Source: Kineosporia mesophila (lineage in GTDB: Bacteria; Actinomycetota; Actinomycetes; Actinomycetales; Kineosporiaceae). Taken from it: DNA of 64,000 bases. Below, in pieces: positions 12,379-45,076 of this stretch. The first letter of the stretch is position 1. Each line of letters opens with the position of its first letter. The stretch spans positions 124,001 through 188,000 of the forward strand of contig NZ_JAJOMA010000007.1 of the NCBI RefSeq assembly GCF_021129235.1, written 5' to 3'. The position numbers and the translations under genes are program-made. The notes under the pieces were generated by a model. That model ran no database searches, had not been told where the DNA came from, and saw only the letters and a list, made by a program, of their open reading frames with translations.

Positions 12379-12433
12379 GGGGTTTCATCCTCCTGATGGG
12401 CATGCATGAATCTGGAACGGCACGCACTTACTG

Positions 12434-15567: not shown

Positions 15568-15583
15568 GTTGCGTATGGCGCAC
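15568..15583. promoter_or_regulatory. betaine-regulon operator, site 2 (proVWX promoter)
   Basis: GTTGCGTATGGCGCAC, matching the reverse complement of site 1 at 13 of 16 positions and site 4 at 13 of 16. It lies in the 385-bp gap between betA and proV (15499-15883). The rest of that gap shows no gene and no strong hairpin. Confidence 0.55.
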
Positions 15584-15883
15584 TACGATTCTTCTTGGGG
15601 GACACACTGTGCCCGTGGTGAGGTCATGGTCAAGGTATACGGTCGTTTCGGTGTGGTTAATCTAGCCAAAGCCGTAGCTATACCCGAATCTCCGTCGCCC
15701 AATCGTGACATGACGCACTGTTGGTCACCCGTTCACTCTGAGTAGTGATTACGGACGACCAACAGGCGCTTTGCGTATCGTGCGGTGCGAGGGTGGCCCG
15801 GTGGGGCGGCTTGCGCCGAACGGTTTTCGGGCCGCCGGTTGAAGGCGGATCGAGAAGCGTTGAAGGAGGGCGTCGCGGCTTTC

Positions 15884-17581
15884 CTAAGCCGACTGCTCGC
15901 TACTCACGACGTGCCGATAGAACGGCACCGGCTGCGCTTCCAGAGGCGTGTTTCCACCGATCAGGTCGGCCGCCTTCTCCGCGAGCATGATGACCGGCGC
16001 GTAGATGTTTCCGTTGGTGACGTAGGGCATGACCGAGGCGTCGGCGACGCGCAGGCCGGGAACTCCGTGAACGCCCATCGTGAGGGGATCGACGACGGCG
16101 AGGTCGTCGGTGCCCATCTTCGCCGTGCAGGACGGGTGGTAGGCCGTCTCGGCGTCGCGGGCGACCCAGTCCAGGATCTCCTCGTCGGTGCTCACTTCGG
16201 GGCCGGGGGAGATCTCCCCGTCGCTGAAGTCGGCGAAGGCGGGCTGGGCGAGGATCTCGCGCGCCACGTGGATCGCCTCGACCCACTCCCGCCGGTCCTG
16301 TTCGGTGGAGAGGTAGTTGAAGGTCATGGCCGGGGCCCGGCGCGGATCGGTGCTGGTGATCTTCACGCTGCCCCGGGCGTCGGAGTACATCGGGCCGATG
16401 TGCACCTGGTAGCCGTGGTCGGCCGCCGGGGAGCTGCCGTCGTAGCGCACGGCCACCGGCAGGAAGTGGAACATCAGGTTGGGGTAGCCGACGTCGTCGT
16501 TGCTGCGGGCGAACCCGCCGCCCTCGAAGTGGTTCGTGGAGGCCGGGCCGGTCTTGCGCAGCAGCCACTCCAGGCCGATCGCCGGGCGGCGCCACAGCTT
16601 GAGCGAGGGGTTCAGTGACACCGGCTGCTTGCAGGCGTGCTGCACGTAGACCTCGAGGTGGTCCTGAAGGTTCTCGCCCACCCCGGGCAGGTCGGCCACC
16701 ACGTCGATACCGAGCTTGCCCAGTTCGGCCGCGTTCCCGATGCCGGACAGCTGCAGCAGCTGCGGGGTGTTGATCGCACCGCCGGCCAGGACGACCTCAC
16801 CGGCCTCCACCCGCTGCGGGCCCGATCCGACCCGCCCGAGAGGCCCACCGAACGGAAGGGATCGTGTGTACTCCACCCCGACCGCGCGTCCATCCTTGAA
16901 GATCACCCGGTGGACCAGCGAAAGCGTTCTCACCGTCAGGTTTTTCCGGATCTTCCGGACCGGGTGCACGTAGGCGCGGGCGGCCGACAGCCGCCGGCCG
17001 TTGCGGATCGTGCGGTCGAACTCGTGGAAACCCTCTTGCTGGTAGCCGTTCACGTCGTCCGTGAGCGGGTGGCCGGCCTGCTGCACGGCCTCGAAGAACG
17101 CCGAGAACAACGGGTTCGTGGCCGGGCCGCGCTCCAGTTCCAGGGGGCCGTCACCGCCACGCCACTCGTCCGCCCCGGTCAGGCAGTTCTCCATTTTCTT
17201 GAAATACGGTAGACAATGCGCGTAATCCCAGGACTGCATGCCCGGGTCCGCGCCCCACCGCTCGAAGTCCAGGGGGTTGCCGCGCTGGAAGATCATGCCG
17301 TTGATGCTCGACGAACCACCGAGCACCTTCCCCCGGCCGTGCGAGACCCGCCGCCCGTGCATGAAGGGTTCGGGTTCGCTCTGGTACCGCCAGTCGTAGA
17401 GCGGATTCCCGATCACCATGGTCAGGGCCGCGGGCATGTGGATCAGCAGGTCCCAGGCGAAGTCGGATCTGCCGGCCTCCAGTACCAGCACGCTGGTGGA
17501 GGGGTCTTCGCTCAGCCGGTTCGCCAGTACACACCCGGCCGAACCACCGCCGACGATGACGTAGTCGTACCGCTCGACCAT
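15884..17581 (-). CDS. betA: choline dehydrogenase (GMC oxidoreductase)
   Basis: 565 residues from ATG 17579-17581, which has AGGAGG six bases upstream; longer starts would run through the operator region. FAD-binding [20 protein letters not shown] at the N-terminus, GMC signatures [15 protein letters not shown] and [22 protein letters not shown], and the C-terminal active-site His in [10 protein letters not shown]. It oxidises choline to betaine aldehyde and can continue to betaine. It diverges from betB across 116 bp that carry a shared operator. Another alcohol oxidase of the GMC family is possible, but the context favours BetA. Confidence 0.86.
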
Positions 17582-17624
17582 GCCTGTCCTCCTGATGACC
17601 GGGGCGGGCAAACCGCCTACCATC

Positions 17625-17640
17625 GTTGCGTCATACGCAC
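17625..17640. promoter_or_regulatory. betaine-regulon operator, betA/betB promoter
   Basis: GTTGCGTCATACGCAC in the 116-bp divergent gap, 44 bp from the betA start and 57 bp from the betB start. It agrees with the motif at 11188 (reverse complement) at 14 of 16 positions. A looser half-site pair (GCGTTCC...AATGCAAC) follows at 17642-17660, so two proteins could bind side by side. Confidence 0.6.
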
Positions 17641-17697
17641 TGCGTTCCAGACAATGCAACGGCCACAGTGAATCATCACGATTGGTGAGGGGTCTAG

Positions 17698-19209
17698 ATG
17701 TCATCCGCGGCTACTCAGCTCGCAGTCTCCCTCGACGGCACGCCCACGGTGCCCGGCACGCTCTACATCGGTGGGCAGTGGCGCTCCGCGTCCGGGCATC
17801 GCGCGGTGCTGAATCCCGCTGATGCCAGAGAGATAGGCCAGGTGGACGAGGCCTCGGCCGCCGATGTGGAGGCCGCCGTCGCCGCCGCGCGGGCGGCCTT
17901 CGACGCGGGGGAGTGGAGCTCGACCTCGCCGGCAGAACGCAGCGCGATTCTCGGGAGGGTCGCCGATCTACTACAGGCCAACCGGGCCCAGATCGCTCGC
18001 ATCGAGACGCTTGACACCGGAAAAACCTTGCGCGAGAGCGAGATAGATGTCGATGACGTGACATCTGTGTTTCGTTATTACGCGGCGCTGGCTCTCGGCG
18101 AGCCGGGCCGGCTGGTCGACGCGGGCAACCCCGCCGTCATCAGCCGGGTCGTGTACGAGCCGGTCGGGGTCTGCGCGCTGATCGGTCCGTGGAACTATCC
18201 GTTGTTGCAGATCTCCTGGAAGATTGCCCCCGCTCTCGCGGCCGGCTGCACCGCGGTGCTCAAACCCAGCGAGGTCACGCCCCTCACCACGATCGTGCTG
18301 GTGGGACTGCTGGAAGACGCGGGGGTGCCTGCGGGGGTGGTGAACCTGCTGCTCGGGTCGGGTGCGGTGGCGGGCGCGGGTCTCGTCGAGAGCGAGGATG
18401 TCGACCTGGTCTCGTTCACCGGCGGGCTGAACACCGGGCGCTCGATCATGCGCACGGCGGCGGACACGGTGAAGAAGGTCGCGCTCGAGCTGGGCGGCAA
18501 GAACCCGCACATCGTCTTCGCCGACGCCGACCGGGAGGCCGCTCTCGACGCCGCCCTGACCGGCGTCTTCCTGCACGCCGGGCAGGTCTGCTCGGCCGGC
18601 ACCCGGCTGATCCTCGAAGACAGCATCCACGACGACTTCGTCGCCGAGCTGGTGCGCCGGGCTGAGCTGATCCGCATCGGTGACGGTCTCTCCGAGGAGA
18701 CCGAGATGCCGCCGCTGGTCTCCGCCCAGCACCTGGCCAAGGTGGAGGACCACGTGCGGATCGGTCTGGAGGAGGGCGCCAAGCTGCTCACCGGCGGTGC
18801 CCGGCTCTCCGACGACCAGACGGGGTACTTCTACCGGCCAACCGTTTTCGTCAACTGCACGGGCGTGATGCGGATCGTGCAGGAAGAGACCTTCGGGCCC
18901 ATCGTCACCGTCGAGCGCTTCAGCAGTGAGGACGAGGCGGTCCGCCTGGGCAACGACACCCGGTACGGGCTGGCCGGGGGCGTCTGGACCTCGGACCGGG
19001 GCAAGGCCCACCGCGTGTCCCGGCGGCTGCGGCACGGCACGATCTGGATCAACGACTTCGGGCCGTACCTGCCGCAGGCCGAGTGGGGCGGTTTCAAGCT
19101 GTCCGGCACCGGGCGTGAGCTGGGCCCCTCCGGGCTGGCGGAGTACCGCGAGGCCAAGCACGTCTACGAGAACACCGAGCCGGCGGCGCAGCACTGGTTC
19201 TCCGGCTGA
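17698..19209 (+). CDS. betB: betaine aldehyde dehydrogenase
   Basis: 503 residues from ATG 17698 with GAGGGG five bases upstream. An aldehyde dehydrogenase of normal length with the catalytic pair Glu264 ([10 protein letters not shown]) and Cys298 ([11 protein letters not shown]), and the NAD region GPWNYPLLQ...FTGG. It oxidises betaine aldehyde to glycine betaine with NAD(P)+. Its position opposite betA across a common operator supports this substrate over other aldehydes. Confidence 0.9.
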
Positions 19210-28206: not shown

Positions 28207-28749
28207 GTGAGTTCACCTGGTACCAGCGGAGTGACGGTCCGGATCGTGCGGGAGGAAGACGCCGAGCCGTTCGCCCGGGTCATCTCCCAGAACCGGGACT
28301 TCCTCCAGCCGTGGGAGCCCATCCGGGGCGAGGAGTACTTCACCGTCGAGGGCCAGCGCCGCATACTCGATGATTCCCTCCTCCTCTACTCGGGCGGGAT
28401 CCTGCTGCCCTGCACCATCATCGAGAAGGGTGAGGTGGTGGGGCGGATCAATATCAACAACATCATCCGGGGCGCCCTGCAGTCCGGCGACATCGGCTAC
28501 TGGGTGGCCGAGTCGGCGGGCGGCCGGGGCGTGGCCACGGCCGCCGTCGCCGGTGTGATGCGGATCGCCTTCGACACCCTGGGCCTGCACCGGCTCGCGG
28601 CCAGCACGCTGGTGAGCAACGAGCGGTCGCAGCGGGTGCTGGAGAAGAACGGGTTCGAGCGCATCGGGATGGCCCCGAAGTTCCTGAAGATCAACGGAAA
28701 CTGGTCCGACTCGATCCTCTTCCAGCGGCTGAACGAGGCCTACGACTGA
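28207..28749 (+). CDS. GNAT acetyltransferase, RimJ/RimL type
   Basis: 180 residues from GTG 28207. The acetyl-CoA loop appears as [14 protein letters not shown], preceded by GYWVAESA and followed by [30 protein letters not shown], the classic RimJ/RimL pattern. It would acetylate a protein N-terminus, an aminoglycoside or a small amine. Its 3' end overlaps the hutI 3' end by 10 bp on the opposite strand. Confidence 0.85.
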
Positions 28750-29933
28750 AAGGCCCGGGCCAGCGGCACCCCCGGCCGGTAGGCCAGGTGCACGTACGAC
28801 GGGGCGTCGATCACGGCCAGGTCGGCCCGGGCACCCACCCGGATCCGGCCGATGTCGCTGCGCCGCAGGGCGATCGCCCCACCCCGCGTGGCCGCCCAGA
28901 GTGCTTGCGCCGGGCTCATGTTCATCTCCCGCACGGCCAGCGCGATCACCAGGGGCAGGGACGAGGTGAAGCAGCTGCCCGGGTTGCAGTCACTGGCCAG
29001 CGCGACCACGGCCCCGGCGTCCAGCAGCCGCCGCGCGTCCGGGTAGGGCGAGCGGGTGGAGAACTCGACCCCCGGCAGGAGGGTGGCAACCGTTCCGGAG
29101 ACCGGGTTCTCCTGGTCGATCCGCTGCCCGGCCGCCCCCAGCGCGGCCACGTCTTCATCCGTCAGGTGCGTGCAGTGGTCCACGCTCGCGGCATCCAGCT
29201 CCACCGCGATCTGCGCACCCGGCCCCTCGGAGAGCTGGTTGCCGTGCACGCGCAGCTCCAGACCGGCTGCCGCACAAGCTTTCAGCACCGTCCGGGTCTC
29301 GTCGCCGTCGAACGCGTAGGCGCTCGCCGGTTCGCAGAACACGTCGGCCCAGCGGGCGTGCGGGGCGCACGCCTCGAGCATCTCGCCGGCCACCAGCCGC
29401 ACGTAGTCGTCCCGCCGGTCGCGCATCAAAGGGGGGACGACGTGCGCACCCAAGTAGGTCACCTCAGTGGTCACCTGGGCGGCGATGCGCAGGGCCCGGG
29501 CCTCCTGCTCGACGTCGAGCCCGTAACCGCTCTTGATCTCGACCGTCGTGGTGCCCTGTGAACGCATCTCCGCCAGAAGGGCTTTCGCATGGTTCAGTAG
29601 CTCTTCGTCGCTCGCCGCGCGGGTCGCGGCCATCGTGGTCGCAATGCCCCCGCCGGTGTACGGCTCGCCCGTCATCCGGGCGGCGAACTCACCCGCCCGG
29701 TCGCCGGCGAAGACAAGATGCGAGTGGGAGTCGACGAAACCGGGAACGACGGTGCGACCGGTCAGGTCGGTCACCCGGTCGGTGGCCGGGGCCTGCGCGG
29801 CCTGGCCCACCCAGGCGATGTGGTCGTCCTCCAGAACGATCGCGGCGTTCTCGAGCAGGCCCAGCTCCGAACCGTCGCCGATCGCGGGGTCGTTCGTGAC
29901 GAGCTGGCCGATTCCGGTGACCAGGTGGCTCAC
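28740..29933 (-). CDS. hutI: imidazolonepropionase
   Basis: 397 residues from GTG 29931-29933. A metal-dependent amidohydrolase with [48 protein letters not shown] and [10 protein letters not shown], all HutI signatures. It opens imidazolone propionate to N-formimino-L-glutamate, the third step of histidine breakdown. It is the last gene of the hutU-M20-hutF-hutI operon, 11 bp after hutF. Confidence 0.93.
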
Positions 29934-29944: not shown

Positions 29945-31264
29945 TCAGTCCGAAAGTGTTGCGAGAGCTGTCTGCAGGAGCGCCCCGACGTCGCCGAGCC
30001 GGTGCCGGCCGGCACTCACCACGACCTCGCCGCCCACGATCACCGTGTCCACGTCGGGTGCGGTGGCGCTGAGGGCCACCTGGTCCGGGCGGGTCCCGGC
30101 CGTACGCACCGAGTCCAGACGCACGGCGATCAGGTCGGCGGGGGAACCGGTCTCCAGGCGCCCCAGTTCGGGCCAGCCCAGGCTGCGGTGCCCGTCGCCG
30201 GTCAGCGCGGTGAGCAGCGCGGCGGGGGAGAAGCGGCCCCGGGCCCGGGTGGCGAGCCGTTCGTGCATCTCCAGCCCGCGCGCCTCCTCGAACAGGTCGA
30301 TCACGGCGTGCTGGTCGCTGCCCAGCGTGATCGTCGCCCCGGCGTCGGCCAGGGCCCGCGCCGGGCCGATCCCGTCGGCCAGGTCGCGTTCAGTGGTGGG
30401 GCAGAAGCAGGCGTACGTGCCGCTCAGGTCGGTGATGTCGGTGGCGGTCAGGTGGGTGGCGTGAATCAGGGACGTCCGCGGCCCCAGAACGCCGGCCCGC
30501 TTCAGTAACGCGGTGGGCGTCAGACCGTGGTGGGCCCGGCAGGCCTCGTTCTCCGCCGGCTGCTCCGAGAGGTGTACGTGCAGTGGAAGGCCGTCCTGGC
30601 GGGTGAAGGCGGCCACGGAGCCCAGCTGGTCGGCGGGCACCGCGCGCACCGAGTGGATCGCCGCGCCGACCCGCAGACCGGAGGAGGGCTTGAGGCCGGA
30701 CACCCGCGAGGCCCAGGCGTCCGCCGTCCCGTCGCCGAACCGGCGCTGCACCCCGTCCAGCGGCGTGTAGCCGTCGGCCGTGAGACCGCCGGTCAGATAG
30801 CAGGTGTCGAGCAGGGTGAGGCGGATCCCGGCCTCGGCCGCGGCCTGGCGCAGGGCCTCACCCATGGTGTTCGGATCGGCGTAGGGCCGGCCGTCGCGGT
30901 CGTGATGCAGGTAGTGGAACTCGCCCACGGTGGTGATGCCGGCCAGTGCCATCTCCGCATAGACCGCCCGGGCCAGGGCGAGGTAGGAGTCCGGGTCAAG
31001 CCGGCGGGCGATGTCGTACATCACCGTGCGCCAGGTCCAGAACGACCCGCCGTCGGCATGGGTGCGACCCCGCAGCGCCCGGTGGAAGGCGTGCGAGTGG
31101 GCATTGGCCAGTCCGGGCAGAAGGACGCCCGGGAGCCTCTGGTCGGTCGGCTCCGGCCGGACTCCCTCCCGGACCGAGGTGATCAGGCCGCCGGTGACGC
31201 AGACCTGCACATCGTCGGCAATGCCCGAGGGCAGCCAGGCGTGGGGCGCCCAGTAGGAGGTCAC
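29945..31264 (-). CDS. hutF: formimidoylglutamate deiminase
   Basis: 439 residues from a GTG that overlaps the stop of the gene before it (GTGA). Amidohydrolase motifs [48 protein letters not shown] and [14 protein letters not shown] match HutF. It converts N-formimino-L-glutamate to N-formyl-L-glutamate and ammonia, so this organism uses the five-enzyme route and needs a deformylase next. Confidence 0.93.
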
Positions 31265-32460
31265 GAGGCCAGCTCCCGCAGCACGGTGGTCAGCGCCTCG
31301 ACCCCCGCGACGCAGTCCGCCTCCTCGGCGAACTCGGCCGGGGAGTGCGAGATCCCGGTCGGATTACGGACGAACAGCATGCCGGTGGTGACGCCCGCCG
31401 TGGCCAGGATGCCGGCGTCGTGCCCGGCGCCGGTGCCCAGGAGGGGCGCACCGCCCAGGACCCGACTCAGGCGGTCGGCCAGTGACGAATCGAAAGCCGT
31501 GTTCCCCGTCCATGATTCCTCGGTGACCGTCGCCCCGAGTTCCTGGGCCGCAGCGGTGAGATCACGCAGCACGCCCTGCACGCTGCTCTCCGAGGGTGCC
31601 CGGGCATCGAGCCAGGCCCGCACCAGCGAGGGGATGGCATTCACGCCGTTGGGCTCGACGAGCAGTTTGCCGAAGGTCGCGACGGCCTCGTGCGCTCCGG
31701 CGAACGTCCGCGCCGCTAGCACGGTCGAAGCATAGTCGAGCATCGGGTCGTGCCGATCGGCCAGCCGCGTCGTACCGGCGTGGTTGGCCTCGCCCGCGAA
31801 GTCGAAACGCCAGCGCCCGTGCGGCCAGATCGCCGTCCCCACACCGATCTGCGCGTCCCCGTACTCCTCGGTCGCCAGCGCCCGGCCCTGTTCCACGTGC
31901 AGCTCGACGAAGGCGCCGATGCGGTGCAGGGTCTCGTCGTCGCGCCCGAGGTGCCGGGGGTCCTGGCCGGCGCTGCGCATGGCCTCGGGGATCGAGGTGC
32001 CGTCGCCGTCCCGCAGACCCGCGGCCCGGTCGGCCGACATCGCCCCGGTGATCAGTCGCGAACCGGCGCAGGCGACCCCGAACCGGGCGCCCTCCTCGTC
32101 CACAAAATTGACTACACCCAGAGGTTTTCCGGGCTGGAAACCCTCGGCCTTCAAAGCTTCCACGGCCGCCAGGGCGCTCACCACGCCGAGTGGCCCGTCG
32201 AAGGCCCCACCGTCCGGCACCGAGTCCAGGTGGCTGCCGGTGACGATGCCCGGCGCCGAGTCCGGATCTCCCCACCACGCCCACTGGTTCCCGGCCCGGT
32301 CCACGGTGAGATCCATCCCGAGAGCAGCGGTCTCACCGGCGAACCACTCACGCAGAAGAGTGTCCTCGGCAGTCCAGGCAAACCGCCGGTACCCACCGGA
32401 CGAGGCCCGTCCGATGGGCTCCAGCTCGGCCCACCGCCGCCCGAATCCCCTCGTGATCAT
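31261..32460 (-). CDS. M20 amidohydrolase (allantoate amidohydrolase-like) in the hut operon
   Basis: 399 residues. The ATG at 32458-32460 lies inside palindromic element E; GGGGA just upstream serves as Shine-Dalgarno and the spacing to WAELEPIGR fits the family. Metal ligands: GSHLDSVPDGGAFDG, DEEGARFG, ELHVEQG and a C-terminal SHSPAEFAEE. The family includes allantoate amidohydrolases and N-carbamoyl amino acid hydrolases. Between hutU and hutF, with no HutG in view, it probably removes the formyl group from N-formylglutamate. That is inference; ureide breakdown is the alternative. Confidence 0.8.
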   Translation of the reverse strand: MITRGFGRRWAELEPIGRASSGGYRRFAWTAEDTLLREWFAGETAALGMDLTVDRAGNQWAWWGDPDSAPGIVTGSHLDSVPDGGAFDGPLGVVSALAAVEALKAEGFQPGKPLGVVNFVDEEGARFGVACAGSRLITGAMSADRAAGLRDGDGTSIPEAMRSAGQDPRHLGRDDETLHRIGAFVELHVEQGRALATEEYGDAQIGVGTAIWPHGRWRFDFAGEANHAGTTRLADRHDPMLDYASTVLAARTFAGAHEAVATFGKLLVEPNGVNAIPSLVRAWLDARAPSESSVQGVLRDLTAAAQELGATVTEESWTGNTAFDSSLADRLSRVLGGAPLLGTGAGHDAGILATAGVTTGMLFVRNPTGISHSPAEFAEEADCVAGVEALTTVLRELAS

Positions 32461-32522
32461 GCAATTCCCCAGCCTTCGGCCGGGAGGTGCCCCCACCTCC
32501 GGAGCCGGTTTGCCTGATCACG
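32452..32522. repeat. intergenic palindromic element E
   Basis: A 71-bp element with ends CGTGATCATGCAATT and TTTGCCTGATCACG and a centre sharing CCCCAGCCTTCGGCCGGGAG with element B. It interrupts the hut operon between hutU and the M20 gene and supplies the M20 start codon (ATG-ATC-ACG, minus strand). The other 80 bp before the hutU stop hold no gene. Confidence 0.65.
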
Positions 32523-32602: not shown

Positions 32603-34279
<1,677 letters not shown>

Positions 34280-36051: not shown

Positions 36052-36972
36052 CTAGCTGAGGCCGTTGCTGGAGAGGAACTCCTTGGCGACGTCGGCCGGC
36101 TCCTTCTGGTCGAGGTTGACCTCGCCCATCATCGAGGTGAGATTCTCGGTGGTGAGCTTGGCCGAGACGGCGTTCAGCGCGGCGGACACCGCGTCGCTCG
36201 CCTTCTCCTTGTTGATGATCGGCACCACGTTCTGGGCCGCGAACTGGTTCTCCGGGTCTTCCAGCGTGACCCAGCCGTTCTCGGTGATGGTCGGGTCGGT
36301 GCTGAACACGTCGGCCGCGTCGACCGTGCCGTTCTTCAGCGCGGCGACGGTGAGCGGGCCACCGGCGTCCAGGGACTTGAACTCCTTGAACTCCACGCCG
36401 TAGTTCTTCTTGAAGCCGGGCACGCCGGTCGGGCGGGTCTTCCACTCCGGCGGGCCGCCGAGCACGAGGTTCTTGCCCTTCATGTCACCGATCGACTTCA
36501 GGCTGTACTTCGCGGCGGTCTCCTTGGTGACCGTCACGACGTCCTTGTCCTCGGCCGTGGACTGGTCGAGGACCGTCAGGCCCTCGGGCAGCGCGGCGGG
36601 CAGGGCGGCGTAGACCTCGTCGGAGCTGACGGCCGTGGCCTTGTTGTCGAGGTACGAGAGCAGGTTGCCCGAGTACTCCGGGAGCAGGTCGATCGAGCCG
36701 TCTTCGAGGCCCGGGATGTAGGCCTCGCGGGAGCCGATGTTGAGCTTCTTGGAGACCTTCACACCCTTCGCCTCGAGGGCGCCGGCGTAGATCTCCGCCA
36801 GCAGCACGTTCTCCGGGAAGTTGGCCGAGCCGACGGTGATGCTGTCGCCGGACGAGCCCGAGCCGCTGTCGCTGGTCGAGGTGTCGAGCGGGTCGCTACC
36901 CCCGCCGCACGCGGTCAGCGCCAGCGAGGAGACAAGGGCCGCCGTAGCGAACATCATGCTGCGTCGTTTCAT
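36052..36972 (-). CDS. betaine-type ABC transporter binding lipoprotein (OpuBC/ProX-like)
   Basis: 306 residues from ATG 36970-36972. Signal MKRRSMMFATAALVSSLALTACGGG has a lipobox (LTAC, Cys 23). The mature domain is of the OpuBC/YehZ type: ITVGSANFPENVLLAEIYAGALEAKGVKV, LLPEYSGNLLSYL and GAALKNGTVDAADVFSTDPTI-like sequence (PLTVAALKNGTVDAADVFSTDP). This fold binds quaternary ammonium compounds. It ends the operon IclR-ATPase-permease-permease-binding protein. Because the divergent gene is an ammonia-lyase homologue, its ligand may be a histidine-derived betaine rather than glycine betaine. Confidence 0.85.
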   Translation of the reverse strand: MKRRSMMFATAALVSSLALTACGGGSDPLDTSTSDSGSGSSGDSITVGSANFPENVLLAEIYAGALEAKGVKVSKKLNIGSREAYIPGLEDGSIDLLPEYSGNLLSYLDNKATAVSSDEVYAALPAALPEGLTVLDQSTAEDKDVVTVTKETAAKYSLKSIGDMKGKNLVLGGPPEWKTRPTGVPGFKKNYGVEFKEFKSLDAGGPLTVAALKNGTVDAADVFSTDPTITENGWVTLEDPENQFAAQNVVPIINKEKASDAVSAALNAVSAKLTTENLTSMMGEVNLDQKEPADVAKEFLSSNGLS

Positions 36973-37116
36973 CAGTGCACTCCTGTGGGGATGTTGTGGG
37001 ACCGCGGTGAACAGCATCTCGTTCGCCACCGACAGTCTTGGTTGGTCGTGAAGGCGCGCGGGTCTCAACTCGGCAACAGTCGGGCCGCAACCCCGCGCAG
37101 ATCCCGCTTTAGGGGG

Positions 37117-37854
37117 TCAAACGGAAACACTCGACTCGGCGGCGACCACGTCGGCGCTCGCGGCCGGCAGGGCGTAGCGGCCGGTGATGCCGCGCGACAC
37201 CACGTATCGCTGGATGACCGCCATCACCAGGTCGAGCGCCACCGCGAGCAGGCCCACCAGCACGGCGCCGCCGGCCATCTGGGCGTAGTCGCGCTGGGAC
37301 AGGCCGTCGATCATGAACCGGCCCAGACCGCCGAGCGTGACGTAGGCGGCGATCGTGGCGGTGGCGACGATCTGCAGCAGCGAGCTGCGGATGCCGGAGA
37401 TGATCAGGGGCAGCGCGTTCGGCACCTCCACCCGCCAGAGCACCTGCATCCCGGTCATGCCCATGCCCCGGGCCGCGTCGCGCGCGGCCGGGTCGACGTT
37501 CTGCACACCGGCGTAGGTGTTCGACAGCACCGCCGGCACGCCCAGCACCACCAGGACGAACAGGGCGGGGCCGAGGTAGATCCAGTCGGTGGGCAGGTTC
37601 CCGGAGTAGGCGATGACCAGGTAGAGCAGCAGGCCGAAGGTGGGCAGGGCCCGCAGTGCGTTGGCGACACCCGCGATGGCCACACCGCCCTTGCCGGTGT
37701 GCCCGATGTACAGACCCAGCGGGATCCCGATGATCAGGACGAACACCAGAGCACCGAACGAGTACTCCAGGTGCTGGACGAGCCGGTGGGTGATGCCGTC
37801 GGGCCCGGACCAGTTCGCACCGTCACCGAGCCAGCTGAAGACACTGCTGATCAT
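37117..37854 (-). CDS. betaine-type ABC transporter permease 2
   Basis: 245 residues from ATG 37852-37854, which overlaps the stop of permease 1 (ATGA). About six membrane helices and the EAA-like loop ARGMGMTGMQVLWRVEVPNALPLIISGIR. OpuBB/OpuBD-type. It pairs with permease 1 as a heterodimeric channel. Confidence 0.85.
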   Translation of the reverse strand: MISSVFSWLGDGANWSGPDGITHRLVQHLEYSFGALVFVLIIGIPLGLYIGHTGKGGVAIAGVANALRALPTFGLLLYLVIAYSGNLPTDWIYLGPALFVLVVLGVPAVLSNTYAGVQNVDPAARDAARGMGMTGMQVLWRVEVPNALPLIISGIRSSLLQIVATATIAAYVTLGGLGRFMIDGLSQRDYAQMAGGAVLVGLLAVALDLVMAVIQRYVVSRGITGRYALPAASADVVAAESSVSV

Positions 37855-38498
37855 CGCTTTGCCACCGCCCGCTGCCACGGGGTCAGCACGCGGCTGCCCA
37901 GCACGATCAATGCGTCCAGAACCAGGGCCAGCGCCAGGCAGAGCAGGATGCCGAGCAGGGTGATCCCGGGGATGTACCGGCTGAAGCCCTCGGTGAAGAG
38001 CGAGCCGAGCTGGGGCACGCCGATCAGGGCGCCCACCGAGACCAGGCTGACGTTGGACACCGTGGCCACCCGCAGGCCGGCCGTGATGACGGGCACCGCG
38101 ATCGGCAGGTCGACCCGCAGGAAGCGGCCGATGCCGGAGAAGCCCATGGCCGTGGCGGCGGCCCGGATGTCCGGGGCCACCGAGTTGAGACCGTCCGCGA
38201 CCACCCGCACCAGCAGCGCCAGGCTGTAGACGGTCAGCGCGACCACCATGTTGACCGGCGACAGGATCTTCGTGCCGAGGATCGAGGGCATCAGGATGAA
38301 CAACGCCAGCGACGGGATCGTGTAGAGCAGCCCGGCCAGGTTGGTGATGGGCGGGTAGGTCCAGCGGTAGCGGCTCGCCACCCAGCCGATCGGCAGGGCG
38401 ATGATCAGGCCGATCACCACCGGCAGCACCGACATCCACAGGTGCGTGAAGAACCAGGACGAGACGTTGTCCGGGTTGTTCTTCAGGTAGTTGATCAT
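37851..38498 (-). CDS. betaine-type ABC transporter permease 1
   Basis: 215 residues from ATG 38496-38498, overlapping the ATPase stop (ATGA). About five membrane helices and the cytoplasmic loop AATAMGFSGIGRFLRVDLPIAVPVITAGLR that contacts the ATPase. Short OpuBB-type permease. Confidence 0.85.
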   Translation of the reverse strand: MINYLKNNPDNVSSWFFTHLWMSVLPVVIGLIIALPIGWVASRYRWTYPPITNLAGLLYTIPSLALFILMPSILGTKILSPVNMVVALTVYSLALLVRVVADGLNSVAPDIRAAATAMGFSGIGRFLRVDLPIAVPVITAGLRVATVSNVSLVSVGALIGVPQLGSLFTEGFSRYIPGITLLGILLCLALALVLDALIVLGSRVLTPWQRAVAKR

Positions 38499-39610
38499 CC
38501 GTCGCTCCCGTTGCGCCGGCCGGCCAGCTGGGACTCGATGCGCTGCACCACCTCGCTCGCCGTCACGGTACCCACCAGGGCGCCGTTGTCGTCGATGAGC
38601 ACCCCGCGGCCGGCGGGCGAGGAGAGCGCGGCGTCGAGTGCCCCGCGCAGGGAGCCGGACACCGGGGCCAGGGTGCCGCCGCGGTGCAGCAGCTCCGGCG
38701 TCACCTGCTTGCCCTCGGCCAGGGCGGCGGCGCGCACCCAGCCCAGGGGCCGGCGGGCGTCGTCGACGGCGAGCGACCAGCCGTCGCGGGCGGCCCGGCC
38801 CACGGCCGCTGCGTCGTCGCCCAGCTTGACCGTCTGCTCGGTGTCGGGGTCAAGCTGGCCGGACTCGAAACCCAGTGCCCGGTAACCACGGTCGCGACCC
38901 ACGAAACCGGCGACGAAGTCGTCCACCGGGTCGGTCAGCAAGGTCGCGGGCGAGGCCAGCTGGGCCAGCGTGCCACCGACCTTGAGCACGGCGACCTGGT
39001 CGCCGAGCTTCACCGCCTCGTCGATGTCGTGCGTGACGAAGATGATGGTCTTGCCGAGTTCCGACTGCAAGCGCAGGAATTCGTCTTGCAGCTCGGCGCG
39101 CACCACCGGGTCGACGGCGCTGAACGGCTCGTCCATGAGCATCACGGGCGGGTCGGCGGCCAGGGCCCGGGCCACGCCCACGCGTTGCTGCTGGCCGCCG
39201 GAAAGTTGTGCGGGGTAACGCTTCGCGAAAGACGCGGGCAGTCCGACGCGCTCCATCAGCTCGATCGCCTGGCTGCGCGCCTTCTTCTTGTCCCGGCCGA
39301 GCAGCAGTGGCACGGTGGCCACGTTGTCGACGATCGTGCGGTGAGGGAACAGGCCGGCGTGCTGGATCACGTAGCCGATGCCCCGGCGCAGCGTGCTCGC
39401 GTCGACCTTTCCGGTGTCCTGGTCGTCCAGCCAGATCGTGCCCGAGGTGGGCTCGATCATCCGGTTGATCATGCGCAGCGAGGTGGTCTTGCCGCAGCCG
39501 GAGGGGCCGACGAACACCGTGATCTTTCCCGAGGGCGCCACGAGATCGAGCCCGTTCACGGCCACGGTTCCGTCCGGGTACTTCTTCACCACGGATTCAA
39601 ACTTGATCAT
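38495..39610 (-). CDS. betaine-type ABC transporter ATP-binding protein
   Basis: 371 residues. Walker A GPSGCGKTT, Q-loop IQHAGLFPH, signature LSGGQQQR, Walker B VMLMDEP, switch VTHD; then a C-terminal pair of CBS-like repeats (about 240-360). OpuBA/OpuCA-type. It lies 4 bp after the IclR gene and is translationally coupled to permease 1, so regulator and importer form one operon. Confidence 0.88.
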   Translation of the reverse strand: MIKFESVVKKYPDGTVAVNGLDLVAPSGKITVFVGPSGCGKTTSLRMINRMIEPTSGTIWLDDQDTGKVDASTLRRGIGYVIQHAGLFPHRTIVDNVATVPLLLGRDKKKARSQAIELMERVGLPASFAKRYPAQLSGGQQQRVGVARALAADPPVMLMDEPFSAVDPVVRAELQDEFLRLQSELGKTIIFVTHDIDEAVKLGDQVAVLKVGGTLAQLASPATLLTDPVDDFVAGFVGRDRGYRALGFESGQLDPDTEQTVKLGDDAAAVGRAARDGWSLAVDDARRPLGWVRAAALAEGKQVTPELLHRGGTLAPVSGSLRGALDAALSSPAGRGVLIDDNGALVGTVTASEVVQRIESQLAGRRNGSDG

Positions 39611-39614
39611 GCGC

Positions 39615-40382
39615 TCATCTCTGCTCTCGGGGCATCGTGCGGGGTTCAGCGGGGTGTGCCGGGTCAGTAGTGGGCATGGCTTCGGTTCTTTCGGGCTTTT
39701 CGGAGCAATGGACGAGCTGGTCGCCTCCCAGCTGAGCGCCCAGTCCGGCGGCCAGATGGGTCAGGAGAGGCCCGAATCGGCCGATCGCCGATTCGTCCAG
39801 CCGGTAGGTGGGGCCGACGATGCTCAGGGCCGCCGCCACTCCACCGGGACCGGTGACCGGGGCCGCGACCGCCGTGACGTCGGGTTCGATGCCGGAGGCG
39901 ATGCTGGTCCAGCCCTTGTCCGGGGTGCGCCCGAGCAGGACCGATCCGGCCGCGCTCCCGGCCAGCGGGAAGGCCCGGCCGACCCAGCCGGCGTGTCGCA
40001 CCGAGTGCGTGCCCTGGGCCATGGCCAGGTAGAGGGCCGTCGCGCCGGGCCCGGTGACGCTCAGGTAGGCCGACTCGCCGGTGGCCTCGACCAGCTCGTT
40101 CAGGGCCGGGCGGCTCAGCGGCACCAGGTGCTCGTGGGAGAGGGCCTGGGCGCCCAGCTGCATCATCCGCGGGCCGGGGCGGTAGCCACCGACTTCGGCG
40201 CGGGTGACGAACTGGTCCTGCTCGAGCGTGCGCAGCAGCCGGAGTGTGGTGCTGACGGGAAGCCCGACGAGGCGGGCGAGCTCCACCAGGGGACCGGTCC
40301 CCCCGGTGCAGACGGCCGCCAGCAGAGCCAGCGCGCGTTCCACGGATCGCGTGGAAGAGCTGGCGGGGGGCTTGCCGGGCAT
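39615..40382 (-). CDS. IclR family regulator of the lyase/importer locus
   Basis: 255 residues. Winged helix (STRSVERALALLAAVCTGGTGPLVELARLVGLPVSTTLRLLRTLEQDQFV) and IclR effector domain (AFPLAGSAAGSVLLGRTPDKGW, AVAAPVTGPGGVAAALSIVGPTYRL). The last 30 residues are polar and probably disordered. It is the first gene of the importer operon and diverges from the lyase gene at 40588, with an IclR-type box between them. Confidence 0.84.
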   Translation of the reverse strand: MPGKPPASSSTRSVERALALLAAVCTGGTGPLVELARLVGLPVSTTLRLLRTLEQDQFVTRAEVGGYRPGPRMMQLGAQALSHEHLVPLSRPALNELVEATGESAYLSVTGPGATALYLAMAQGTHSVRHAGWVGRAFPLAGSAAGSVLLGRTPDKGWTSIASGIEPDVTAVAAPVTGPGGVAAALSIVGPTYRLDESAIGRFGPLLTHLAAGLGAQLGGDQLVHCSEKPERTEAMPTTDPAHPAEPRTMPREQR

Positions 40383-40456
40383 TTTCGGCGCCCCTCTCTG
40401 GTCGGTGAATGACCTTTTCTACCTCACCAGGAGGGTTGCGTCGCGGCCGGAAGAAA

Positions 40457-40475
40457 GTTTTCACTTGATGGAAAC
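40457..40475. promoter_or_regulatory. IclR-type box, lyase/importer promoter
   Basis: GTTTTCACTTGATGGAAAC, arms GTTTTCA/TGGAAAC with one mismatch around CTTGA, resembling the TTTCCA/TGGAAA halves bound by IclR. A further TGGAAAG half-site follows at about 40490. It lies 75 bp upstream of the IclR start and 113 bp upstream of the lyase. Confidence 0.45.
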
Positions 40476-40587
40476 ACCTTGCCGACTGGTGGAAAGTAAG
40501 GTCACATCGACATGAAGCGGTAAGGCGTCCAGAAACCTGCCGGGGCGGCCGTTACTTCATGAGATGGATCGGAAGCGAGGCGTGGCC

Positions 40588-42174
40588 ATGGATCAGACTC
40601 CGGCAGACCGGGCCGCCGCCGCCGCTGCGGCCTACGCGGCCCCACCGGCGCGGGTACGCAGGGCGGACGGCCCGCCCGCGATGACGATCGACGGCCGCAC
40701 CCTCACCACCCGCAAACTCGTGGCCCGCGTGGACGCCCCGCTCAAGGTGCGGATCACCCCCACCGCCCGCCGCCGCGCCGCCGCCTCGCACCAGGCCGCG
40801 AACGCCGCCGTCGGCCTGCGCCCGGTCTACGGCCGCACCACCGGCGTCGGCGCCAACCGCGAGGTGGCGCTGCCCGCCACCGACGCCGCCCGCCACACCC
40901 TCGGCCTGCTGCGCAGTCACGCCACCAGCGCCGGTCAGGTACGCAACGACATCCGGATCCGGGCCATGCTCGTCGTGCGCCTCAACCAGCTGGCCGCCGG
41001 CGGCAGCGGCATCTCGATGGCCGCGATCGACGGCCTCCAGGCGATGATCAACGCCGATGCCCTGCCCCCGATCCGCGAGCACGCCGGCATCGGCACCGGC
41101 GACCTCACCGCCATGGCCACCACCGCCCTCGGCCTGCTCGGTGAGGCACCCCTGACCAACCCGCTACGCCCGATCTCGCTCGGCATCCACGACGCCCTGC
41201 CCTTCCTCAGCTCGAACGCCGCCACCCTGGCCGACGCCGCGCTCGCCGCCACCCGCCTGCAGACCCTGGCCCGCGCCGGTCTGGCCGTGGCCACGCTCAC
41301 CGGCGTTGCGGTGCGGGCGAACTGGGAGGCATTCGGCCCGGCCGTGGCCCGCGTGACGCCGGGCCTGGGCACCCGCCAGGTCTGCCGCGTGGTCACCGGT
41401 CTGGTCACCGAGCCCGGTCAGGACGTGCCCGTGCACGACCCCGCCCGCATCCAGGACCCGTTCGGCATGCGCTGCCTGCCGCAGGTCAACGGCCTGATGA
41501 TCGACACGCTGGCGCAGCTCGACCGGGTCGTCGGCGCACACCTGAACGCCGCGGCCGAGAACCCGGTGATCCTGGCCGGTCCCGCGGTGCTCGGTCCCGA
41601 TCCGGCCCCGGTCGTCGCGCACCACGGGGGTTTCCATATTCCGGCGGTCGCCCTGGGCTGCGACAGCGCGGCCATCTCGGCGGCCCAGTCCGCGTCCCTG
41701 CTCCAGGCCCGCCTGGCCATGCTGGTCGACCCGGCCGCGACCGGCCTGCCCCCGTTCCTGGGTGACGGCACTCCCGGCGCCTCGGGTGTGATGATGCTGG
41801 AATACCTGGCCGCGTCGGCCTTCGCCGAACTGCGCAGCGCCGCGTCACCGGCCTCGCTGGGTTCGGTGAGCCTGTCGCGCGGCACCGAGGAGCACGCGAG
41901 TTTCGCCTCCCGCTCGGCCGTTCAGGTGCTGAACGCCGGAGACGCCTACGCCACGGCTCTTTCCTGCGAGTTGCTCGCCGCGGTCCGGGCCCTGCGCATG
42001 CAGGAGGCCGTCACCAAGACCGGTTCTTGCGCCGGCTGGGTCAAGATCCTCGACCTGTGCACCTCGCTCGGCGACAGCGCGGCCGACCGCGACCTCACCG
42101 GCGACCTCGCCACCGCCCAGGAACTCCTGCCCGTGCTGGCCGATCTCGTCGAGAGCTACGAACAGGACCGCTGA
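40588..42174 (+). CDS. aromatic amino acid lyase homologue lacking the MIO triad
   Basis: 528 residues from ATG 40588 (GAGG seven bases upstream). It is colinear with histidine ammonia-lyase: VYGRTTGVGANREV (Tyr81), LLRSHATSAG, QDPFGMRCLPQVNG, NAAAENPVI, GGFHIPAVALGCD and TEEHASF. The MIO-forming Ala-Ser-Gly is Gly169-Thr170-Gly171 (GIGTGDLTAMA), the usual catalytic Tyr in QDxYSxR is Phe292, and the conserved Asn near the MIO is replaced in PFLSSNAA. So MIO is probably not formed. Ergothionase-like enzymes of this fold expel trimethylamine without MIO. With a betaine-type importer opposite, such a substrate is likely. A true HutH role cannot be excluded. Confidence 0.82.
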   Translation: MDQTPADRAAAAAAAYAAPPARVRRADGPPAMTIDGRTLTTRKLVARVDAPLKVRITPTARRRAAASHQAANAAVGLRPVYGRTTGVGANREVALPATDAARHTLGLLRSHATSAGQVRNDIRIRAMLVVRLNQLAAGGSGISMAAIDGLQAMINADALPPIREHAGIGTGDLTAMATTALGLLGEAPLTNPLRPISLGIHDALPFLSSNAATLADAALAATRLQTLARAGLAVATLTGVAVRANWEAFGPAVARVTPGLGTRQVCRVVTGLVTEPGQDVPVHDPARIQDPFGMRCLPQVNGLMIDTLAQLDRVVGAHLNAAAENPVILAGPAVLGPDPAPVVAHHGGFHIPAVALGCDSAAISAAQSASLLQARLAMLVDPAATGLPPFLGDGTPGASGVMMLEYLAASAFAELRSAASPASLGSVSLSRGTEEHASFASRSAVQVLNAGDAYATALSCELLAAVRALRMQEAVTKTGSCAGWVKILDLCTSLGDSAADRDLTGDLATAQELLPVLADLVESYEQDR

Positions 42175-42300: not shown

Positions 42301-42876
42301 TCAGTTCTGGATCTGGGCGTCCCGCAGACGTTCCTGGTCGTCCGGGAACGGCTCGTCGATCGGGCGCAGCTCGTCGGCGTAGGAGACCGAGGTGCGACGC
42401 AGGACGCCGGTGGTGCTGATCGCGTACTGCCCCATGCGCCACAGGGGCGGGGAGTAGGCGTGGATCGAGACGCTGCCCTCGGCGGCGCCGGTCATCCGGT
42501 GGATGTGGTCGGTGCCGAAGCTGAACGCCTGGCCGGCGGGCACCCGGATCTCCAGGGCGGCGCTGCCGATCACCAGGTTGTGCTCGATCACCTCACCGTG
42601 GGCCACGGCGACGGCACCGGAGGAGACGTCGTGGTCGTGCCAGCCGGTGTCGTTGCTCGGGGTCCAGCACAGCACCCAGACGTCGACGTTCGCGTCGCGG
42701 TGCAGGCAGACGTAGTGGCGGTGCTCGTCGTCGTAGGCCACGTGCGGCTCCCACGCGGCCGGGTCGGCGGCGATGGCCGCGACCAGGTCGCGCAGTTCCG
42801 GGCGGGTGAGGACGCGCGCAGGAAGGTCGTTCAGGACCTGCACTTGCGTGGCCGCGGTGTCGGTGGTGCTGGTCAT
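42301..42876 (-). CDS. cysteine dioxygenase-like cupin protein
   Basis: 191 residues. A cupin of the cysteine dioxygenase type I family: GWHDHDVSSGAVAVAHGEV gives two iron-binding His and FSFGTDHIHRMTG the third, with the SIHAYSPPLWRMGQY end typical of the family. These iron enzymes oxidise thiols (cysteine, 3-mercaptopropionate and others) to sulfinates. Its start overlaps the stop of the amidohydrolase gene (ATGA), so the two work together. Because the upstream lyase may release a thiol-bearing product, a non-cysteine thiol is possible. Confidence 0.78.
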   Translation of the reverse strand: MTSTTDTAATQVQVLNDLPARVLTRPELRDLVAAIAADPAAWEPHVAYDDEHRHYVCLHRDANVDVWVLCWTPSNDTGWHDHDVSSGAVAVAHGEVIEHNLVIGSAALEIRVPAGQAFSFGTDHIHRMTGAAEGSVSIHAYSPPLWRMGQYAISTTGVLRRTSVSYADELRPIDEPFPDDQERLRDAQIQN

Positions 42877-43787
42877 GGCCTACCTCCGATCAGGAAACGC
42901 TGCGGATTGCTGACATCGATGGCGTGGTCGGCGGCACTGCCGAAGCCAAGGGGGACGGGCTGGGCGTACGGACGGTCGCTGCCCCGGACGATCGCGTCGA
43001 TCCCGAGCACGCGGACCAGGGCGTCGACCGCCTGCGGGCCGTAACTGGAGGTCTCGACGAACACACCGGGATCGAGCCGGCCCATCCGTCCGCCCCGGGC
43101 GTTCAGGCGCTCGTGCTGCAGAGGGGCCAGTCCGGCCCCGGCGACGAAACCGATCCGGAGCTTCGGCAGGAGCCCACGGCCCACGTGGTGCCAGGACCAC
43201 CAGGCCGCCGAGAGCTGGGCGGTGTAGTCGACGACGGCGGGCCACCAGCCGGGAAGTTCCTCGACCGGTACCTGCGCGACCGCCCCGGGGTGCACCAGGA
43301 CGGGCTTGCCGGCCTCTTCGCAGACCCTCAGGACCGGCGCCAGGGCGTCGAGAGCCCGGGGAGTGGCCAGCCAGGGGGCCGGCACCTGCAGCCCGACGAA
43401 ATCGCCGTGCAGCAGTTCGGCCAGGCCGGACCGGTCGGGCTCGTGACGGCCGACCGCGGCCCAGGCCCCGAAACCGGACGGGAGCTCACGGGCTCCCTCG
43501 TGCCAGGTGTCGAGAAGGGGCTGGGCCTCAGAGGCCGGAAGGTCTTCGAGGCCCAGTGGGCTGGACAGCGAGACCAGGGCCCGGACATCGCCCTGCAGGC
43601 CGAGCCGGGCGGCGACATCGTGATCGGCGGGGTTCACCTCGTACGGCGGTTCGCCCGGGAGATGAAGGGTCCATCCGCGGAGGAAGGGCGGTTCCCGGCG
43701 AGCCCGGAGCGCGGAGATCAGCGTGGACGGCCACAGGTGCTGATGCACATCGCACGACTCGCCCGAACGCGACGACACACCGACCAT
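42873..43787 (-). CDS. amidohydrolase family protein (TIM-barrel)
   Basis: 304 residues. CDVHQHLWPSTLISALRARREPPFL near the N-terminus gives the His-x-His metal motif, KPVLVHPGA a further His, and VRGSDRPYAQPV the terminal Asp of amidohydrolase-2 enzymes (hydrolases or decarboxylases). It is the first gene of a two-gene operon with the cupin. Three LacI operator copies lie between it and the LacI gene, so the substrate is probably the LacI effector or close to it. The reaction is unknown. Confidence 0.7.
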   Translation of the reverse strand: MVGVSSRSGESCDVHQHLWPSTLISALRARREPPFLRGWTLHLPGEPPYEVNPADHDVAARLGLQGDVRALVSLSSPLGLEDLPASEAQPLLDTWHEGARELPSGFGAWAAVGRHEPDRSGLAELLHGDFVGLQVPAPWLATPRALDALAPVLRVCEEAGKPVLVHPGAVAQVPVEELPGWWPAVVDYTAQLSAAWWSWHHVGRGLLPKLRIGFVAGAGLAPLQHERLNARGGRMGRLDPGVFVETSSYGPQAVDALVRVLGIDAIVRGSDRPYAQPVPLGFGSAADHAIDVSNPQRFLIGGRP

Positions 43788-43850: not shown

Positions 43851-43864
43851 TTGAAGCGGTTCAC
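43851..43864. promoter_or_regulatory. LacI-type operator 1
   Basis: TTGAAGCGGTTCAC, 64 bp upstream of the amidohydrolase start. It has 12 of 14 positions in common with the perfect copy at 43977. Confidence 0.65.
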
Positions 43865-43976
43865 CCGAATGATTTCAAGTGCTGTTGCCCATGCGTCTCA
43901 AGGTGTGTCGTCCTGACGAACACCGAGCGACGCTCGATCGGGCGTCGGTGATTCCGGTAACCCGGTCCCACCTGCG

Positions 43977-43990
43977 GTGAAGCGCTTCAC
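43977..43990. promoter_or_regulatory. LacI-type operator 2 (perfect palindrome)
   Basis: GTGAAGCGCTTCAC, a perfect palindrome with the central CG that LacI-family proteins prefer. It is 73 bp upstream of the LacI start. Confidence 0.75.
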
Positions 43991-43999
43991 TGGTGTCTA

Positions 44000-44013
44000 T
44001 TGAAGCGCTTCAC
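44000..44013. promoter_or_regulatory. LacI-type operator 3
   Basis: TTGAAGCGCTTCAC, one base from the perfect palindrome and 23 bp centre to centre from operator 2, so the two lie about two helical turns apart. Confidence 0.7.
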
Positions 44014-44062: not shown

Positions 44063-45076
44063 ATGACTCAGGGGCGTCACCGGCCGACGCTGCGCGATAT
44101 CGCCGAGGAGACTGGGCTGTCTCCGGCCGCTGTCAGCTATGCCCTGCGGGGGCTACAGGTCACCGAGGAGACCCAGGCGCGCGTCCGCGAGGCCGCGAAA
44201 CGCCTGGGGTACGAGGCTGATCCGATCGCGCGGGCACTGGCTTCTGGGCGTACCGAGACGATCGGCGTGCTCTGCGGCTCTCTCGCCGACGGATGGCAGC
44301 AGCAGGTGGCCGCGGCTCTGGGGCGAGGGCTGCTGGGGGCGGGGCGCAACCCGGTCACGGTGGACGCCGGCAACGACCCGGTGCGGGAGGCCACCCTGGC
44401 CAAGCGCATGGTCGACCAGCGGGCCGACGCACTGATCGTGCTGCCGGTCGACCCGAACGCGCCGCACTGGGCCGAGGTGGCCGACCGCACGGTGCTCGTG
44501 GCGGTGGGCGACGGCCTGCCCGGGGCCCCTACCGCCGCCGAGGTGGTCTTCGACAACGACACCGGCGTCAGCCACGGTCTGCGCATGCTCGCGGCCGCCG
44601 GGCACACCCGCGTCACCCTGCTGACGCCGACCGACCGGGCCACCCCCGACCGCCCGGCCGAGCGGATCGTGCGGCAACTGGCACCCGAGCTCGGGCTCGC
44701 CGCGGTGGTGCGCAGTTGCCCGCACGATCTCGACGGGGCCGCCGCGGTGGTGCGTGAGCTGATGGCCGCCGACGCGCCCCCCACGGCGTTCTTCTGCCTG
44801 GCCGACTCCATCGCGTTCGGCGTCTACCTGGCCGCTCGGGATCTGGGACTGTCCGTGCCGGAAGATGTTTCAGTCGTGGGCTACGACGACTTCCCGGCCG
44901 GCCGCCTGCTCACCCCGCCCCTGTCGAGCTACCGCTGGCCCATCGACGACCTGGTCTCGGCCGTGGTCAGTCACGCCGTCGAGGCGATCGACAGCAAGAC
45001 GACCGATCGGCAACGGCGCACCGTACTGGTGCCCGAGCCGATGCCCCGGGGCAGCGTGGCGCCGCCCCGGTCTTGA
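44063..45076 (+). CDS. LacI family transcriptional regulator
   Basis: 337 residues from ATG 44063; the frame is open back through operator 3 but that part cannot be coding if the operator is used. N-terminal helix-turn-helix and hinge (RPTLRDIAEETGLSPAAVSYALRGLQVTEETQARVREAAKRLGYEADPIARALASG), then a periplasmic-binding-like effector domain ending in DVSVVGYDDFPAGRLLTPPLS. No Shine-Dalgarno stands before the ATG and a TACGGT lies seven bases upstream, so the mRNA may be leaderless. It likely represses itself and the amidohydrolase-cupin operon. Confidence 0.86.
   Translation: MTQGRHRPTLRDIAEETGLSPAAVSYALRGLQVTEETQARVREAAKRLGYEADPIARALASGRTETIGVLCGSLADGWQQQVAAALGRGLLGAGRNPVTVDAGNDPVREATLAKRMVDQRADALIVLPVDPNAPHWAEVADRTVLVAVGDGLPGAPTAAEVVFDNDTGVSHGLRMLAAAGHTRVTLLTPTDRATPDRPAERIVRQLAPELGLAAVVRSCPHDLDGAAAVVRELMAADAPPTAFFCLADSIAFGVYLAARDLGLSVPEDVSVVGYDDFPAGRLLTPPLSSYRWPIDDLVSAVVSHAVEAIDSKTTDRQRRTVLVPEPMPRGSVAPPRS

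Follow-up and report, generated by a model that had tools for sequence, protein, structure and literature searches.

Ergothioneine is a dietary antioxidant and, to our knowledge, its handling by microorganisms in soil is poorly mapped. An oxidative degradation route in actinobacteria was reportedly described by Nalivaiko, Vasseur and Seebeck in Angew Chem in 2024, in which an ergothioneine dioxygenase and a metal-dependent sulfinic acid desulfinase are said to yield N-alpha-trimethylhistidine (hercynine) and SO2. Another known enzyme is ergothionase (Treponema denticola, PDB 6S7J/6S7Q; Burkholderia sp. HME13), a trimethylamine lyase in which four catalytic residues are reportedly essential. 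It has the histidine ammonia-lyase (HAL) fold and lacks the 4-methylideneimidazole-5-one (MIO) group (PMC13405746). Uptake is known from the EgtU/EgtUV importer, with Lys242, Gly244, Phe293, Tyr341, Glu375, Arg379, Tyr419 and Tyr443 as ergothioneine contacts, Phe293, Tyr341, Tyr419 and Tyr443 belonging to an aromatic pentagon (PMC9732360). A stretch of 64,000 nucleotides of the Kineosporia mesophila genome (7.78 Mb, high-GC, actinobacterial; contig NZ_JAJOMA010000007.1, positions 124,001 to 188,000), hereafter the window, carries a HAL homologue (the lyase) divergent from an importer operon. A preliminary description had proposed that these genes take up a histidine betaine and eliminate trimethylamine from it without MIO; just beyond its range, which ended at 42174, a dioxygenase gene and an amidohydrolase gene adjoin the lyase.

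The observation of a MIO-less lyase with a divergent importer is correct and is more than chance. Its best reading is that ergothionase-like chemistry in a HAL fold is coupled to the known oxidative step: we consider it moderately likely that the region encodes an aerobic route using ergothioneine or hercynine and joined to the histidine pathway, in which the lyase, without MIO, would convert hercynine to urocanate and trimethylamine. In this route, the importer would take up a histidine-derived substrate, the dioxygenase, by its close homology, would oxidize ergothioneine to the sulfinate, and the amidohydrolase, whose presumed identity is consistent with a conserved gene pair, would remove SO2 to give hercynine. 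The lyase would then act on hercynine, and HutU, HutI, HutF and an AllC-like hydrolase would carry urocanate towards glutamate. Because the nitrogen of a quaternary amine carries no lone pair with which to attack MIO, and such an amine leaves readily as it is, MIO would not be needed; Tyr81 would serve as the catalytic base, its established role in HutH.

The lyase retains the HAL frame as described previously (Tyr81; RSHA, with His111; Gln289-Asp-Pro-Phe292; Arg295; EEHAS, with Glu434), and shares with HutH (TIGR01225), besides the fold, Tyr81, His111, Gln289, Arg295, Phe349 and Glu434, all of them invariant in 16 diverse members of the lyase family. It differs from HutH in the MIO tripeptide and at the positions that we take to be HutH Asn195 and Tyr280 (the HutH numbering of active-site residues is presumed throughout). 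Instead of the MIO-forming Ala/Cys-Ser-Gly, its loop reads G169-T170-G171-D172 and, when aligned to HutH chains with an intact loop, leaves a one-residue gap (GIG-TGDL versus GSVGASGDL); the tripeptide has therefore been deleted and not only substituted, a refinement of the earlier report that it was missing. The two replacements reported together with it are also present: Ser208-Ser209 where HutH has Asn195-Gly, and Phe292, which varies across the family, for Tyr280.

The score of the lyase against the NCBIfam model for hutH (TIGR01225) is 244.5 bits, below the cut-off of 539.15. The other PF00221 gene of the genome (C60) lies on another contig, scores 643.7 bits with that model and contains GCSGD; it is a normal HutH, and the lyase should therefore not be needed as a histidine ammonia-lyase. 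Judged from its sequence, the lyase belongs to a clade separate from HutH. In a FastTree phylogeny of 109 rows (89 MIO-less proteins plus HutH, phenylalanine ammonia-lyase (PAL)-like and plasmid proteins), a branch supported at 100 separates the 89 MIO-less rows from the others; long rows meet at several joins, including that of L044 beside the MIO-less branch.

The loop of ergothionase has the same length as that of the lyase (SSIGEGD in 6s7j, GEGD aligning with GTGD), and at the HutH Asn195 site ergothionase has SCNA and the lyase SSNA, where HutH has Asn-Gly-Thr. The lyase thus shares with ergothionase the HAL fold without MIO (PF00221 plus the loop deletion), the loop length and Ser-x-Asn-Ala at that site. 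A profile of residues 150-250, picked because the active-site loop lies there, scored best among solved structures with ergothionase 6s7j (46.4 bits, aligned over residues 125-232), versus 37.4 bits for HutH 7tqr.

Neighbourhoods were compared in 80 relatives, the best 80 of 569 confirmed lyase matches among the matches listed, a sample that leans to near kin because it was chosen by similarity; genes within 10 kb of the lyase were counted, and an importer was scored when at least three of its four components were found. GT[GA]D and SS[NSGH]A occur together in 79 of the 80 called proteins, and the remaining one (L105, called in the wrong frame) has both in its tblastn pieces. An importer lies near the lyase in 43/80 loci, and each of the 11 named families includes one or more such loci, against a chance expectation of about 1.5% of 20-kb stretches with an OpuAC gene (6 such genes in 7.78 Mb). 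In 44 of 45 loci the lyase and the importer ATPase are encoded on opposite strands. Linkage is scarce in Pseudonocardiaceae (2/23) and Micrococcaceae (1/6); five loci (L073, L082, L090, L091 and L096) could hardly show an importer, because less than 1.1 kb of upstream sequence is available. The dioxygenase is found near the lyase in 20 loci and the amidohydrolase in 13, in every case together with the importer; HutU is nearby in 25 (20 of these with the importer), a normal HutH in 8 and an IclR homologue in 13.

The dioxygenase, which gives the strongest clue to the function of the region, is closely related to the ergothioneine dioxygenase of PDB 8QFL-8QFR. With phmmer, its E-values against 8qfl-8qfr range from 7e-64 (8qfr) to 2e-62, and the next matches, dioxygenases of other kinds, reach 6e-7. 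A model built with an alignment, of modest confidence (predicted local distance difference test, pLDDT, 64.3) and used only to obtain PDB titles through Foldseek, gave 13 chains at E<=0.001, all of them the ergothioneine dioxygenase of Thermocatellispora tengchongensis (55-57% identity); a single-sequence model was discarded (pLDDT 37). His147 and Tyr149 of the known enzyme, mutated in 8qfq and 8qfo, correspond to His139 and Tyr141 of the window protein and are invariant in 12 aligned sequences. The amidohydrolase gene overlaps that of the dioxygenase by 4 bases, and we take its product to be the ergothioneine-sulfinate desulfinase, an assignment to which its pairing with the dioxygenase points. 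Three wider samples were searched for the lyase: 6 genomes of the genus, 297 of the order (lyase E<=1e-40) and 396 of the phylum (lyase E<=1e-45). An amidohydrolase homologue adjoins the dioxygenase in all 7 phylum genomes with a dioxygenase at E<=2e-30, a limit set after the list was seen; the genome next below it (G500, 4.5e-29) has no amidohydrolase match, and in another (G453) the amidohydrolase is present but the sole dioxygenase match is weak and lies on a different contig. The window thus shares with the described oxidative route a dioxygenase homologue and an adjoining amidohydrolase homologue; unlike that pair alone, it adds an importer, the MIO-less lyase and hut genes.

On the product side, the canonical hut genes reported earlier begin about 1.8 kb beyond the importer (HutU, HutF and HutI), HutU lying about 6.3 kb from the lyase. 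The window HutU scores 648.4 bits as a thiourocanate hydratase, under the cut-off of 930, and ten of the 25 HutU neighbours in relatives were tested and are all canonical, as are, with that of the window, 11 of 11. Thiourocanate hydratase was also taken as a marker for the surroundings of an ergothionase, and in none of the 396 phylum genomes was its cut-off reached. Urocanate, expected from hercynine, therefore fits the downstream enzymes better than thiourocanate, expected from ergothioneine, and the genomic context is in this respect unlike that of ergothionase. Among the 11 other phylum genomes with a lyase match, a HutU-like gene lies, by coordinates, within 8 kb of the lyase in four (G336, G411, G421 and G453); in G411 there is also a weak match to the dioxygenase family (36%, E 5e-19) about 0.5 kb from the lyase.

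Genes for ergothioneine biosynthesis are also linked to the module: EgtD, EgtB and EgtC are each near the lyase in 11/80 loci and EgtA in 9/80, and in Thermomonosporaceae EgtD is nearby in 9 of 15. Representatives of EgtA, EgtB, EgtC and EgtD beside the module score above the NCBIfam cut-offs. EgtD is above cut-off in 6/6 genus genomes, and the genus is therefore judged to make ergothioneine itself. In several loci (L060, L062, L064, L097, L107 and others), egtA-D lie beside the importer, the lyase and the dioxygenase homologue, so that genes for making the compound and genes for degrading it occur together.

Features of the window discussed in the text (positions of the window, position 1 being its first letter)
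Feature	Coordinates	Strand	Evidence or remark
HAL-fold lyase lacking MIO; predicted trimethylamine-lyase of hercynine (N-alpha-trimethylhistidine)	40588..42174	+	PF00221 E=1.3e-86; alternative open reading frame (ORF) start 40564
Predicted ergothioneine dioxygenase (thiol dioxygenase)	42301..42876	-	homology to PDB 8QFL-8QFR
Amidohydro_2 protein, predicted ergothioneine-sulfinate desulfinase	42873..43787	-	PF04909 26.0 bits (cut-off 26.4)
Three LacI-type operators	43852..44012	.	TGAAGCGGTTCA at 43852; TGAAGCGCTTCA at 43978 and 44001
LacI-family regulator	44063..45076	+	PF00356 and PF13377; likely start 44063, listed ORF 44000
IclR-family regulator, divergent from the lyase	39615..40382	-	PF01614 and PF09339
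ABC (ATP-binding cassette) importer ATPase, ProV/OpuBA type	38495..39610	-	TIGR01186 292.4 bits (under cut-off 326.6)
Importer permease A	37851..38498	-	PF00528
Importer permease B	37117..37860	-	PF00528
Solute-binding lipoprotein, OpuAC/ProX superfamily	36052..36972	-	PF04069 E=2e-52; lipobox LTAC
HutU, canonical urocanate hydratase	32603..34240	-	TIGR01228 885.1 bits (cut-off 375)
AllC-like amidohydrolase beside the hut genes	31261..32496	-	NF006770 584.7 bits (cut-off 372)
HutF, formimidoylglutamate deiminase	29945..31264	-	NF006681 619.6 bits (cut-off 362)
HutI, imidazolonepropionase	28740..29933	-	TIGR01224 352.7 bits (cut-off 298.15)

The operon of an IclR regulator and an OpuB/ProX-type importer (ATPase, two permeases and an OpuAC-type lipoprotein, all on the minus strand) is as previously described, and 36972 (MKRRS...LTAC), not 37068, is the probable start of its binding protein. 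The closest solved relatives of this protein are OpuBC-type proteins, EgtUC and ProX, EgtUC not being the top match (147 versus 155 bits for Lmo1422). It shares with EgtU the OpuAC superfamily and the equivalents of Glu375 and Arg379 (Glu176 and Arg180), which are invariant in 12 aligned binding proteins and, among the EgtU contacts given above, are the only ones kept exactly. The contacts were mapped by hand on the EgtUC alignment; a shift of 229 in the numbering accounts for every listed residue. Of the other contacts, Phe293 corresponds to Tyr100 in the window protein, and Lys242, Gly244 and Tyr341 to Ala50, Phe52 and Asp144; Tyr419 is Phe in 11/12 proteins, including that of the window, and Tyr in 1/12, and Tyr443 is Gln in 10/12 and Glu in 2/12. 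Equivalents of Lys242, Gly244, Tyr341 and Tyr443 are thus missing.

Several of the results weigh against the hercynine reading. As regards the importer, most EgtU contacts are lost, so the ligand cannot be read off and the likeness to an ergothioneine importer claimed in the preliminary description is weakened, failing at the level of residues; hercynine or another histidine derivative is a possible ligand. As regards the lyase, it is not closer overall to ergothionase than to HutH: the full-length profile gives 330.9 bits with HutH versus 272.5 with ergothionase, the C-terminal region 80 versus 35.5 bits, and, once the motif columns are excluded, the identity of the ergothionase fragment is 22.9% with 21 family members (20.0% with the window lyase) as against 30.4% with 7 HutHs. 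As regards the neighbourhood, 60 of the 80 loci, the Lentzea group included, have no dioxygenase nearby, 7 of the 20 dioxygenase loci have no amidohydrolase within 10 kb, and, of the 12 phylum genomes in which the lyase is matched, the window's own is alone in having a strong dioxygenase homologue. Ten Lentzea loci and several of other Pseudonocardiaceae lack both importer and hut genes nearby, and the family may therefore not share one substrate. Since the active-site signature of the lyase is like that of ergothionase and its background is not, a fair reading, which long branches bar from firmer statement, is that the ergothionase-type site arose independently in this family.

Two other substrates have to be weighed, each of them unlikely to a similar degree. 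If the lyase were an ergothionase, cleaving ergothioneine itself to thiourocanate and trimethylamine, the matching loop length and Ser for Asn, the lack of MIO in ergothionase (PMC13405746) and the nearby ergothioneine dioxygenase homologue would be accounted for; however, thiourocanate hydratase does not attain its cut-off in any genome of the phylum sample, those linked HutU proteins that were tested are canonical, the resemblance to ergothionase does not extend outside the motif columns or to the C-terminal region, and the adjoining dioxygenase and desulfinase would be redundant. Alternatively, the lyase could act on another N-methylated or quaternary amino acid (for example dimethylhistidine or a betaine not derived from histidine), its ergothioneine-related neighbours reflecting shared regulation or diversity within the family. 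Such a substrate would agree with a binding pocket that differs from that of EgtU, with the relatives lacking importer, hut or dioxygenase genes and with the variability of position 292, but the linkage to hut and egt genes recurs, and the two residues that align with the EgtU contacts to imidazole and carboxylate, Glu176 and Arg180, are invariant in the 12 aligned binding proteins. That the lyase is a degenerate or non-catalytic HutH paralogue, as its deleted MIO and low HutH score might suggest, is very improbable, given that its six active-site residues are invariant in 16 diverse members and that the copies of the five other genus genomes are 88-98% identical and free of internal stops. 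The earlier proposal of histidine-betaine uptake and MIO-less trimethylamine elimination thus gains from the ergothionase-like loop and Ser, from the linkage to importer and hutU in several families and from the dioxygenase and amidohydrolase neighbours, while direct ergothionase action appears less likely than action on hercynine.

A wider proposal, which we put forward tentatively and at slightly less than even confidence, is that the lyase represents a new, widespread family of MIO-free hercynine trimethylamine-lyases in actinobacteria, one in which an ergothionase-type site was reached independently, completing an aerobic pathway from import to glutamate that in some genera lies beside the genes for ergothioneine biosynthesis. 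Among the titles and abstract openings searched, which cover few subscription journals, no title names a hercynine or trimethylhistidine lyase. If the hercynine reading is right, a function would be assigned to many proteins that are probably annotated at present as histidine ammonia-lyases, the release of trimethylamine and sulfite would be added to ergothioneine turnover in actinomycetes, the HAL fold would have a second case of working without MIO on a quaternary leaving group. Under the wider proposal, bacteria of some genera would both make and consume ergothioneine.

Concerning regulation, the stretch that separates the amidohydrolase and LacI genes holds all three LacI-type operators. 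Searching for a LacI consensus gave 8 matches versus 1.46 expected, and none of 100 shuffles reached 8; the three operator sites count twice each because they are near-palindromes. Of the 19 relatives that have both LacI and dioxygenase, 16 carry the element at, or close to, the beginning of the LacI or dioxygenase/amidohydrolase genes; of the 61 other loci, 1 carries it anywhere. No LacI operator was found upstream of the lyase, where the alignment has other conserved blocks, and the lyase may be under the control of the divergent IclR protein.

The nearest named relatives of the lyase are from Kineosporia (88-89% identical), and it is present in 6/6 genus genomes (88-100% identity to the window copy). 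In the order sample 20 of 297 genomes match, one of which (L038) has the loop of a normal HutH, leaving 19, and in the phylum sample 12 of 396, including the genome of the window. More distant members (L043 and L048) have a GIGD loop, and in two others (L046 and L047) the loop is not visible. The matches of these last two (genomes G485 and G318, respectively) are partial or contain a stop codon, which suggests decayed copies of the lyase in some genomes. Nine of the Lentzea loci (L069, L072, L074, L079, L080, L086, L087, L093 and L095) have a conserved, distinct neighbourhood, with a gene of about 990 codons adjoining the lyase, suggesting another role for this branch of the MIO-less lyases.

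Nine HutH-like plasmid proteins were checked as possible ergothionases, and two of them lack the MIO tripeptide: those of Klebsiella pneumoniae plasmid pINF019_1 (L157:4314-5846) and of a Rhizobium leguminosarum plasmid (L129:8001-9488). Their loops read GSVGYLIATAH and GSAGYLVHNAH, respectively, and each adjoins an ABC importer; the Klebsiella gene lies within a plasmid hut cluster carrying hutU, hutC, hutD and HutF. Both were rejected as ergothionases, scoring higher with HutH, and they differ in lineage from the window lyase. A lyase on an Arthrobacter plasmid (L158) is a member of the window lyase family.

As for the remaining genes, the AllC-type amidohydrolase inside the hut run perhaps substitutes for N-formylglutamate deformylase. 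The binding-protein gene is circularly permuted in 7 of the 43 relatives that have both halves (L051, at 4174-5496, L052, L053, L055, L056, L057 and L068), the second lobe and C-terminus preceding the first lobe; the lyases of all seven group next to that of the window in the tree, together with L054, which is not permuted. A second OpuAC importer is found at positions 8711-17704 of the window, beside a DAO/GCV_T fusion (dimethylglycine-oxidase-like) and a GMC oxidoreductase, in what is probably a choline or betaine degradation cluster.

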